IMG/VR virus record: IMGVR_UViG_3300030430_000877
Location: 1 to 25,364 of that record
From: a virus
Direction: 5' to 3' (one strand)
Length of the DNA: 25,364 nucleotides
Every line of letters starts with the position of its first letter. The stretch's first letter is position 1. Positions 16,806 through 18,674 of this stretch are shown in pieces. Below the pieces are notes generated by a model. It was not told where the DNA came from, made no database searches, and saw nothing but the letters and a program-made list of their open reading frames with translations. Position numbers and translations under genes: made by a program.

Positions 16806-16914
16806 CTGGCTTCGATCAGATGGCATGTGGCACAAGTCTACCAACAACAAATTTTATTTCATGGTTCCACAGTGCTTTCCAGAAGAATGTTCTGGTAAGG
16901 AGAGATGCGAATGA
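16693..16914 (+). CDS. Small cysteine-containing protein of unknown function
   Basis: 73 residues with a hydrophobic N-terminal stretch (LYILVISMWG) that could be a signal or anchor, then a soluble part with four cysteines (C37, C61, C66, C72) and the segment EQCNWLRSDGMWHK. The cysteine spacing in the last 15 residues (QCFPEECSGKERC) suggests disulfides, which would fit an exported protein in the lysis region. No named family is recognised. GGATGG upstream may serve as the ribosome site. It ends with an ATGA overlap into the next gene. Confidence 0.5.
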   Translation: MKETLYILVISMWGSDGVTNHPIGQMALQQPMTLEQCNWLRSDGMWHKSTNNKFYFMVPQCFPEECSGKERCE

Positions 16915-17255
16915 TACAGCTTCTAGGTGTTGTAGGCAGTCTAGCTCAGACATTTCTTGAGGGCAAAGTCGAGAAAGAAAAAGCCAAGTCAGAAATAATG
17001 AAGACTGCTGCCCAGCATGATAGCAAGTGGGAAATGATTATGGCTGAGTCCACCAAGGGATCTTGGAAGGATGAAGTAATCACAATAGCCGTGCTAACCC
17101 CTTGTATCTTATCATTTATTCCGGGCATGGAAGATGTTGTGAAGTCAGGCTTTGAACGACTGAGTGAACTTCCAGACTGGTATCAGAACATATTGTATGT
17201 CACAATCTTGGCTGGATTGGGTCTGAAGGGGCTAGATAAGTTTAGGAGAAAATGA
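16911..17255 (+). CDS. Membrane-associated protein, second holin candidate
   Basis: 114 residues from ATG 16911, chosen because AAGGAG (16897-16902) is 8 bases upstream and the start overlaps the previous stop as ATGA; ATG 16905 would be too close to that site. There is a helical charged N-terminal half (EGKVEKEKAKSEIMKTAAQH), then a hydrophobic stretch ITIAVLTPCILSFIPGMEDV (about 57-76) and a second one ILYVTILAGLGLKGL (about 94-108). This two-segment domain after a WKDE motif is common in marine phages beside the endolysin, and holin is the usual guess. Lysis function is inferred from position. Confidence 0.5.
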   Translation: MIQLLGVVGSLAQTFLEGKVEKEKAKSEIMKTAAQHDSKWEMIMAESTKGSWKDEVITIAVLTPCILSFIPGMEDVVKSGFERLSELPDWYQNILYVTILAGLGLKGLDKFRRK

Positions 17256-17443
17256 TGCCGGGGAAACGCAAGTTTGCAAAGGTTCCTAAAACAAAAGGCG
17301 GTGTGCCAAAAAAGTATGTGCGCGGCGCAAAAAACCCAAAGAAGCGAGAGGCAGAGATCAAACGTACTGCCAAGCTGTATCGGCAGGGCAAGCTGACTCC
17401 GGCTATGATGGATCGGATTAGTAAGCAAAGGAGCAAGGGATAA
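17255..17443 (+). CDS. Small basic protein (MPG family), 62 residues
   Basis: The start at ATG 17255 is preferred over the ATG directly before it, since AGGAG (17244-17248) then lies 6 bases away and the protein begins MPGK, like two other basic proteins of this block that begin MPGH. About one third of the residues are Lys/Arg (KRKFAKVPKTKGGVPKKYV); the second half is a helix with AAELY-like spacing (REAEIKRTAKLYRQGKL). It is probably a nucleic-acid-binding or virion-associated peptide, inferred from charge alone. No family can be named. TAATG couples it to the next gene. Confidence 0.55.
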   Translation: MPGKRKFAKVPKTKGGVPKKYVRGAKNPKKREAEIKRTAKLYRQGKLTPAMMDRISKQRSKG

Positions 17444-17691
17444 TGTCTAGATATGCAAGTGTTTCTGGTGCATCACGGTATTCCAAAGCAACTCTTGATA
17501 AGGTCTACAAGCGTGGGCTAGGTGCATACTATTCATCAGGCTCTAGACCAAAGGTATCAGCACATCAGTGGGCTATGGGCAGGGTAAAATCTTTTGTGTC
17601 GGGCAAGGGCGGTGCAAGGAAAGCTGATGCTGATTTGCTGCGCGGTGGTAGCAAGAAGAAAAAGAAGACAGCCACAAAGAAGAAAAAATGA
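17443..17691 (+). CDS. Small basic protein, DUF5824-like
   Basis: 82 residues. The central part, YKRGLGAYYSSGSRPKVSAHQWAMG then VKSFVSGKGGARKADADLL (about 22-66), matches a motif I associate with DUF5824 phage proteins (GLxAYxSSGSRPxxSxxxWAxxRVxSF). The C-terminus is an almost pure lysine tail (KKKKKTATKKKK). Function unknown; the tail suggests binding to DNA or RNA. It overlaps the endolysin start by ATGA, so it belongs to the lysis/late transcript. Confidence 0.6.
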   Translation: MSRYASVSGASRYSKATLDKVYKRGLGAYYSSGSRPKVSAHQWAMGRVKSFVSGKGGARKADADLLRGGSKKKKKTATKKKK

Positions 17692-18140
17692 ACAAAGATA
17701 AACTCCGTGAAGAGATAGCTGAAGACGAAGGCTGCAAGTACGAAATATACCTAGATCATTTAGGAATCTGCACGACAGGTGTAGGCCACATGATTACTGA
17801 GGCTGACGAAGAATATGGCAAGCCTGTGGGTACAGTTGTTGAACAAGAGCGTGTGCGTCAGTTGTTTGCTCTTGATATGGCTGTGACTCTTGATGAGTGC
17901 CGGGTGTTGTATGATGACTTTGATGATCTGCCACAAGAGTGCCAGCACATCATAGCTAACATGATGTTCAACATGGGGCGTCCCCGGCTATCCAAGTTCA
18001 AAGGCATGAAGGCTGGTGTAGATGCTAGAGACTGGAACAAAGCAGCAGATGAAATGGTAGACTCGCGGTGGTACACTCAAGTACCCAACCGGGCTAGACG
18101 TTTGGTGGATCGTATGAGAGCATTGGCAGATGGTAGCTAA
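17688..18140 (+). CDS. Endolysin, GH24 lysozyme (T4 lysozyme type)
   Basis: 150 residues. The catalytic Glu-8aa-Asp-5aa-Thr arrangement of T4 lysozyme (E11, D20, T26) is present: E14 in EDEG, D23 in YLDHLG and T29 in TTGVGH, with identical spacing. Helical C-terminal lobe with MMFNMGRPRLSKFKGM (about 92-107) and a final WYTQVPNRARRLVDRM (about 128-143), both typical of phage GH24 enzymes. It cuts the beta-1,4 bond between MurNAc and GlcNAc in peptidoglycan. There is no signal peptide, so it needs a holin to reach the wall; two candidates lie upstream. Slightly shorter than T4 lysozyme (164). Confidence 0.92.
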   Translation: MNKDKLREEIAEDEGCKYEIYLDHLGICTTGVGHMITEADEEYGKPVGTVVEQERVRQLFALDMAVTLDECRVLYDDFDDLPQECQHIIANMMFNMGRPRLSKFKGMKAGVDARDWNKAADEMVDSRWYTQVPNRARRLVDRMRALADGS

Positions 18141-18426
18141 ACGATTTCAAAATCCCAAGGGTGGGCTGAACAAGGCTGGCAGGGCTTTCTTCAAACGCAC
18201 TACCGGAGCCAGACTCAAGCCACCCGTCAAACGCGGAGATAGCCCCAGAAGGGCTAGTTTCTTGGCCCGTATGGGCAATATGAGGGGGGCAGAGTACAAA
18301 AATGGCAAGCCGACACGGTTGTTATTATCACTCCGGGCATGGGGTGCAAGCAGCAAGGCTGATGCAAAGAAGAAGGCAGCAGCAATATCTAAGCGTAACA
18401 AAGCCAAAAAGAAAGGAAAGAAGTGA
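18130..18426 (+). CDS. Small basic protein, DUF6321-like
   Basis: 98 residues; ATG 18130 overlaps the endolysin end by 11 bases. It reads KGGLNKAGRAFFKRTTGARL, KPPVKRGDSPRRASFLARMG, then TRLLLSLRAWGASSKADAKKKA and a Lys-rich tail (KRNKAKKKGKK). The GGLxxxGRxxxK, RRxSFxARMGxM and LRAWG signatures fit a widespread phage and environmental family that I recall as DUF6321; the number should be checked. Function unknown. The charge suggests nucleic acid binding. TGATG links it to the next ORF. Confidence 0.6.
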   Translation: MVAKRFQNPKGGLNKAGRAFFKRTTGARLKPPVKRGDSPRRASFLARMGNMRGAEYKNGKPTRLLLSLRAWGASSKADAKKKAAAISKRNKAKKKGKK

Positions 18427-18557
18427 TGCCGGGGCATTCAAAGAAAAAAAAGATGATGAAAAACGGTAACGGTGGTATGCTGACAGCCAAGCAGAAAACT
18501 CTGCCAGCAGCACTGCAAAAGAAAATTATTGCGTCAAAGAAGAAGAGGAAAAAGTAA
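18426..18557 (+). CDS. Lysine-rich mini-protein MPGH-1 (43 residues)
   Basis: It begins MPGHSKKKKMMKNGNGG and ends SKKKRKK; 17 of 43 residues are Lys or Arg. The start overlaps the previous stop (TGATG) and the stop is followed directly by the next ATG (TAAATG), so it reads as part of the operon and not as chance. Its N-terminus matches the following ORF (MPGH, then Gly/Lys), suggesting tandem duplication. Function unknown. Confidence 0.55.
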   Translation: MPGHSKKKKMMKNGNGGMLTAKQKTLPAALQKKIIASKKKRKK

Positions 18558-18674
18558 ATGCCAGGACATTATGGTGGTAAAAAAGGCGGCATGAAGTCTG
18601 CCAAGATGAAGAAGCAAGCGGCAACAGCCATAGCCATGAAGAAGGCTGGCAAGAAGCCTAAAAAGAAGCGTTAG
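18558..18674 (+). CDS. Lysine-rich mini-protein MPGH-2 (38 residues)
   Basis: It begins MPGHYGGKKGGMKSAKMKKQ and ends KKPKKKR; 15 of 38 residues are Lys or Arg. It is the last gene of the plus-strand late operon. Its TAG (18672-18674) overlaps the TAA of the converging minus-strand gene (18671-18673). Similar MPGHYGxK mini-proteins occur at the end of late operons in other phages. Role unknown; DNA compaction or a virion-internal basic peptide are possibilities. Confidence 0.55.
   Translation: MPGHYGGKKGGMKSAKMKKQAATAIAMKKAGKKPKKKR

Follow-up and report, generated by a model that had tools for sequence, protein, structure and literature searches.

Why a phage should surround its endolysin with very small, strongly basic proteins is the question raised by the late genes of an environmental virus (IMG/VR record IMGVR_UViG_3300030430_000877). 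The window, by which we mean the whole stretch of 25,364 nucleotides that was analysed, makes up 25.4 of the 33.6 kb of a virus record. Tail protein B shares 48.6% identity with its counterpart in pelagiphage HTVC010P, with 93% of the query covered. The rightward genes of the window, including those for tail and internal proteins, run up to position 18674, with leftward convergent genes thereafter. Five small basic proteins are encoded around the endolysin gene (17252-18674), just as an earlier note on this DNA had described, and they are a sample of a widespread modular set, not isolated mini-proteins. Our proposal, to which we give somewhat less than an even chance, is that the window carries one copy of a modular set of small cationic proteins which bind nucleic acid, are common to very different aquatic phages and would act on DNA during head assembly and filling. 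The genes concerned are the following, where dN/dS is the median ratio of nonsynonymous to synonymous substitution rates over the relatives kept, namely those with a dS of 0.03-1.5 and at least 80% of codons aligned (aa, amino acids).

17252..17443, + strand: 63-aa basic protein with PKKYVRG motif, probable N-terminal half of DUF5824, relatives upstream of the 82-aa gene; dN/dS 0.046 (12 of 89 relatives kept)
17443..17691, + strand: 82-aa basic protein, C-terminal half of DUF5824, Lys tail; PF19141, E 1.4e-11; dN/dS 0.076 (22 of 89 kept)
17688..18140, + strand: endolysin (Phage_lysozyme), acidic, inside the cluster; PF00959, E 3.7e-9
18130..18426, + strand: 98-aa basic protein, DUF6321, Lys/Arg tail; PF19846, E 1.2e-20; dN/dS 0.184 (13 of 112 kept)
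18426..18557, + strand: 43-aa basic protein, MPGH leader, core LTAKQKTLPAALQKKI, Lys/Arg tail; dN/dS 0.095 (8 of 24 kept)
18558..18674, + strand: 38-aa basic protein, MPGHYG leader, core KSAKMKKQAATAIAMKKAG, Lys/Arg tail; dN/dS 0.184 (9 of 16 kept)

Since the medians range from 0.046 to 0.184, all five small basic open reading frames (ORFs) can be taken as protein-coding genes, each under purifying selection. The earlier note had reckoned with their possible absence from relatives; they are conserved there. Lys and Arg make up 28-37% of the five proteins, compared with a mean of 12.6% and a maximum of 19.7% for the other 30 genes in a window set of 35 drawn by hand; their net charges lie between +14 and +28, and of 200,000 random placements, 87 bring five such basic genes together within a run of six genes. 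The Lys/Arg tails ascribed to four of the proteins are there (82, 98, 44 and 38 aa; an alternative GTG start at 18423 makes the 43-aa protein 44 aa). Two of the five, the 82-aa and 98-aa proteins, already belong to Pfam families. At the DNA level no relatives of 16900-18674 were found among phage records (blastn, E 1e-5), and both promoter-like sites (4 found, 4.8 expected) and terminator-like sites (6 found, 3.4 expected) are near chance level.

The 98-aa protein provides the widest view of the set. It spans positions 2-72 of the 72 of Pfam DUF6321 (74.3 bits, cut-off 28.5 bits), from which it differs by some 27 additional Lys/Arg-rich residues. At least 444 phage records contain DUF6321 when the window protein is the tblastn query, and 508 do when the query comes from a cyanophage. 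Across 84,980 species genomes of bacteria and archaea, a pattern-limited scan gave 38 loci, and because these are titled metagenome bins or, going by names as we know them, single-cell assemblies, the distribution points to a phage rather than a host gene. One of them is a 263-kb SAR116 contig (L268; single-cell by its name as we know it), which could be a provirus or come from an infected cell. In seven PHROG profiles of larger proteins, 141 to 928 positions long, DUF6321 lies at or near the C-terminus, the match stopping 1 to 9 positions before the last; the shortest, phrog_11180, is a natural fusion of GLYANI (14-54), a small family that we name from its sequence, with DUF6321 (67-139). In T7-like and other small aquatic phages its neighbours are the small basic families described below, frequently amid head genes; in the T4-like cyanophages S-SM1 and S-B43 the domain forms the C-terminal end of larger proteins. 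The S-SM1 protein, T4-GC119, appears a single time, as a hypothetical protein in a gene cassette, in the accessible parts of PMC3037559 and PMC2784084. In metaG-MbCM1, DUF6321 lies in an unannotated frame overlapping the end of the T4-GC119 gene (L086:4001-4222), the gene that it ends in S-SM1. The HTVC010P late region holds a weak DUF6321 relative (L088:26149-26430, E 0.089). The literature covered, outside which most subscription papers lie, contained no paper on DUF6321 or DUF5824, nor on phage DUF5856 or DUF6496.

What makes the cluster more than a local oddity is the company that DUF6321 keeps. Ten small basic families, defined largely from these same loci, were sought within 1.5 kb of DUF6321 at the best 80 of 594 environmental loci: one or more is present at 65 of the 80 (45 of the 52 with full flanks), and a reversed-sequence control gave 0 matches. 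GLYANI lies no more than 60 bases from DUF6321 in 32 of the 80. Cultured phages, which were not used to define the families, show the same association in part. Between scaffold and capsid, HTVC022P encodes a leader with a 43-aa-type core, GLYANI and DUF6321, and HTVC304P encodes DUF6321, GLYANI and the 43-aa core. P-SCSP1u places a 23-aa unannotated leader peptide, DUF6321 and GLYANI immediately after the capsid gene; S-SBP1 has an unannotated leader peptide, DUF6321 and GLYANI behind the scaffold gene, ahead of psbA and capsid. In CRP-171 the scaffold and capsid genes enclose GLYANI and an unannotated leader of 19 aa, and DUF6321 was not seen in the 3.7 kb read. In Hodr, DUF6321 is followed by a 43-aa-type core, in MEP301 it precedes the connector, and in S-SM1 it lies between gp16 and gp17; in the stretches of S-SM1 and S-B43 that were read, the other families of the set were not matched. 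Thus DUF6321, both parts of DUF5824, GLYANI and MPG-leader peptides recur near one another in varying combinations, conserved as proteins. Two further small basic families (WRTKSG and STVN, our names) are fused in Hodr (L082:4955-5353) and are adjacent separate genes in L067 and L079.

The larger neighbours of DUF6321 were assigned for 134 of 144 selected proteins, each of which can match several PHROGs. The commonest family is phrog_1276 (14). Of the annotated families, the commonest are those for the head-tail adaptor or portal, with 11, 11 and 8 matches, those for the large terminase subunit, with 10 and 7, and those for the major head protein, with 7, 6 and 5; DUF5856, phrog_858 ('starvation-inducible transcriptional regulator') and the endolysin PHROG each account for 6 of the 134. 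One DUF5856 protein upstream of DUF6321 (L044:3309-3668) gave no Dps match in the PDB.

The first two genes of the cluster probably encode the two halves of one domain. The 82-aa protein covers positions 69-123 of the 127 of the DUF5824 profile (45.1 bits, Pfam cut-off 25 bits), and the 63-aa protein is likely, on comparative grounds, to be the split-off N-terminal half of the same family, so that the window and its relatives would differ from Pfam DUF5824 in carrying this probable half as a separate adjoining gene. In the best 80 loci of 579 relatives of the 82-aa protein, a relative of the 63-aa protein is encoded in all 80, directly upstream in 72 (its end meets the 82-aa start or overlaps it by 3 to 7 bases; gap 0, -3 or -7), and a relative of the window lysozyme in 40. 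The 63-aa protein alone has no Pfam match; joined, the window pair aligns with profile positions 1-123 at 43.4 bits, against 45.1 for the 82-aa protein alone. Similar adjoining pairs occur in pelagiphage HTVC026P (63-aa family, E 3.5e-6) and Prochlorococcus phage MED4-184 (E 8e-14). The joined HTVC026P pair aligns from profile position 1 and scores 33.0 bits, compared with 31.5 for its second gene alone and with 30.2 and 29.5 for two shuffled controls; the MED4-184 pair aligns from position 22 at 27.9 bits (alone 27.1; shuffled 20.6 and 23.0). In an hhalign comparison with three natural N-half segments, the 63-aa family came first of nine families (E 0.041), but with a probability of only 1.3%. 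In HTVC008M both parts lie on one chain, a 101-aa piece matching 1-57 (22.2 bits, cut-off 25) and the C-terminus 60-123. In C48C1 the N-half is on a cytidyltransferase (profile 1-55, 24.0 bits, below cut-off) and the next gene is the C-half; the corresponding piece of Melnitz gave no match. In CRP-823 the C-half scores 22.2 bits, below cut-off, and no N-half was detected; it resides in a 238-aa 'major capsid protein' of doubtful annotation, between the portal and a 750-aa protein of the same name (L169:4340-5056). About 100 bases upstream of the pair in the siphophage MED4-184 lies an unannotated peptide, MPSHYGSMKPKGKKKKVKKGGKK (L171:4582-4653).

The MPG starts, which the earlier note had read as a common beginning of three proteins, call for a different account. 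All three do carry MPG at the start or one codon later (MMPGK, MMPGHS, MPGHY). As a shared leader the claim fails for the 63-aa protein, whose MPGK is local: it is common to three near relatives (L090, L091, L099), and because other relatives start differently (MRKF, MKRKF or MARKF), the wider leader is limited to the MPGH pair. The 43-aa and 38-aa proteins begin with a shortened version of a leader, MPMGKGTYGSxxGRPxK. The core of the former (LTxKQKTLPxALxKKI) is found behind MPGH, MPGHYG, MPMGKGTYGSxxGRP or MYGKK starts and is conserved in Hodr, HTVC304P, HTVC022P and environmental loci with other leaders; that of the latter is found behind MPGHYG or, in L002, L068 and L007, a GKGTYGSxRGRP leader. 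Among 726 distinct small basic ORFs from the first 160 loci, chance ORFs included, MPG starts number 25 (2.5 in residue shuffles), GTYG 13 (0.12) and RGRP 11 (2.3). A scan with the long leader gave 274 relatives in the first 600 matches, and 80 loci were kept and sorted by simple sequence patterns. In these the leader stands before the 43-aa core in 31 cases, before the 38-aa core in 7 and before four further patterned cores in 10 (among them LSKLP, which may be a form of the 43-aa core); in 19 cases nothing but a Lys-rich tail follows it, and in 13 some other sequence does. By these patterns the leader stands before at least six different, mostly cationic cores, and DUF6321 lies within 2 kb of it in 43 of the 80 loci.

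The leader also exists alone, as peptides of 19-30 aa that are often unannotated, which suggests that it has a function of its own. Examples of 19-27 aa without an annotated gene of their own are found in P-SCSP1u (L301:1801-1872), CRP-171 (L303:1801-1860) and S-SBP1 (L087:3865-3954, where an overlapping neighbour is listed). A lenient tblastn search of named phages (E up to 10) matched 39 records; with seven mycobacteriophage matches inside methyltransferase genes set aside, no gene is listed at the leader in 25 of the remaining 32, and 17 of those 25 are one isolate series. Across 78 distinct leaders (80 loci plus five cultured phages), synonymous and nonsynonymous codon differences number 20,318 and 7,335, where neutrality would give about 1:3; the constancy of the leader is partly by construction, as a peptide pattern guided the choice of loci and some of these lie on contigs already present in the first sets (L183 with L068, for instance). 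In P-GSP1 a leader ORF stops at 22 aa, and a different frame holds an overlapping core-like ORF (L302:1786-1951), by frameshift, gene breakage or chance.

Given this mobility, the tandem duplication that the earlier note had thought likely for the MPGH pair loses its appeal. A recent copy finds no support in the DNA, where the similarity does not exceed that of codon shuffles, 326 of 500 of which reach the score. At the protein level the two do score above residue shuffles, of which 1 in 500 attains their score, or 7 in 500 when MPGH is left out, and a common leader would explain the likeness better than a gene copy would, because the leader moves between different cores. An old common origin is possible.

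What might such a set do? Late binding of nucleic acid is, on the present comparisons, a plausible best explanation. The nucleic-acid target is suggested by the charge of the proteins, by their position near head, packaging and lysis genes, and by a GRP motif that resembles an AT-hook. Each protein would consist of a Lys/Arg tail joined to a small element, either folded or hook-like; placed among head or lysis genes, it would be produced late and would cover or neutralise phage DNA during the assembly and filling of heads. Such action would take place during packaging and would not require that the proteins stay in the finished virion. More speculatively, and in our estimate with the chances clearly against it, the 17-residue leader MPMGKGTYGSKRGRPPK could be a detachable microprotein module that binds the DNA minor groove, either alone (down to 19 aa) or before at least six cores, and that would form with DUF6321, DUF5824 and GLYANI a chromatin-like set dressing DNA in late infection, the MPGH pair of the window being a reduced form. 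GRP occurs in the leader at all 80 leader loci, as RGRP in 49, partly by construction of the search. In relatives the leader shares with the AT-hook (PF02178) a GRP core with basic neighbours.

Several results weigh against the proposal of late nucleic-acid binding. Only 3 of 42 leader proteins reach the AT_hook profile at E up to 10 (best E 0.054; first leader member 10.7 bits, cut-off 17.4), and GRP is missing from the window's own MPGH leaders. The neighbours in the window itself are lysis genes rather than head genes; head genes are abundant in phage genomes, and the neighbour counts carry no background rate. The commonest neighbour family of DUF6321 has no known function. AlphaFold2 models of the 98-aa DUF6321 protein (mean predicted local distance difference test score 89) and of the 82-aa protein (mean 73) have no significant structural match in the PDB, so that the fold gives no function; sequence searches of the PDB likewise yielded nothing significant. 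DUF6321, DUF5824, GLYANI and the leader were not matched in Syn5, P-SSP7 or the first 50 of the 107.5 kb of P-SS2, and the set is thus accessory and dispensable. Finally, one virion analysis counts against the proposal. Proteins rich in Lys and Arg yield poor tryptic peptides. The 30 virion proteins listed from mass spectrometry of cyanophage S-SZBM1 do not include its DUF6321 protein, SSZBM1_192 (Table 1 and section 3.4 of PMC9146016). S-SZBM1_190, a 424-aa 'virion structural protein' considered as proof of packaging, is not the DUF6321 protein. For the reason given, the non-detection weakens a virion role and does not exclude it.

That result bears most directly on the possibility of internal head proteins that are packaged and injected along with the DNA, the MPG leader serving as a capsid-targeting signal. 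The internal proteins IPI-III of T4 are small, basic and late, and carry a capsid-targeting leader on different bodies; the set discussed here is likewise small, basic and late, with a short common N-terminus on different bodies. However, the leader here also exists alone. Position, charge, head-gene neighbours and a leader common to different cores all fit such a role. A cytidylyltransferase, which carries DUF5824 in HTVC008M and Melnitz, is moreover reported as a virion protein of S-SZBM1 (PMC9146016), and T4-GC190 cytidylyltransferase is reported in the S-SM1 virion. As proof of packaging this chain from HTVC008M and Melnitz to S-SM1 breaks, since the S-SM1 copy has no DUF5824 match. The absence of SSZBM1_192 from the virion list and the existence of 19-30-aa leader-only peptides, which a mere targeting tag leaves unexplained, also speak against internal head proteins. 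Virion packaging thus has no direct support and a single contrary result, and we consider this role unlikely.

We would also rate as unlikely a cytoplasmic role, in which the proteins bind RNA, ribosomes or the host nucleoid and aid late host takeover instead of packaging. The same charge pattern would bind RNA, the window set adjoins lysis genes, and the DUF6321 protein was not found in the S-SZBM1 virion. Repeated placement among head and terminase genes across different phages speaks against such a role. It is improbable that the Lys/Arg tails are mainly a by-product of purine-rich 3' ends that supply the ribosome-binding site of the next gene in a tight operon: Shine-Dalgarno-like purine runs do precede the 82-, 44- and 38-aa genes within the end of the preceding gene, but the 38-aa gene, the final rightward gene ahead of the convergent genes, keeps its tail with no same-strand gene directly behind it, and the cores are conserved too. 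Cationic lysis helpers acting on the envelope with the endolysin are very improbable, for although basic proteins flank the lysozyme in the window and its relatives occur at half of the DUF5824 loci (40/80), position beside the lysozyme being the sole support found, HTVC304P, MEP301, S-SBP1, S-SM1 and P-SCSP1u carry DUF6321 among head or terminase genes and the endolysin PHROG accounts for so few of its large neighbours.

Given hundreds of phage records with DUF6321 and shortest peptides that often lack an annotated gene, a shared late function of marine phages may have gone unnoticed. If the peptides bind DNA, tailed phages would possess their own equivalent of chromatin or protamine, built from exchangeable parts.

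Two minor observations concern the edges of the cluster. The core of the 38-aa protein resembles the QAxAIAxxxAG stretch of Pfam DUF6496 (PF20106), a small basic phage neighbour of DUF6321, but the 38-aa protein matches no Pfam family at E up to 1, DUF6496 included, and phmmer against such ORFs gives E 0.07-1. Upstream of the cluster, at 16905-17255, the window encodes a 116-aa protein of phrog_2524 (function unknown) in which hydrophobic stretches are visible by eye, a possible lysis membrane protein.

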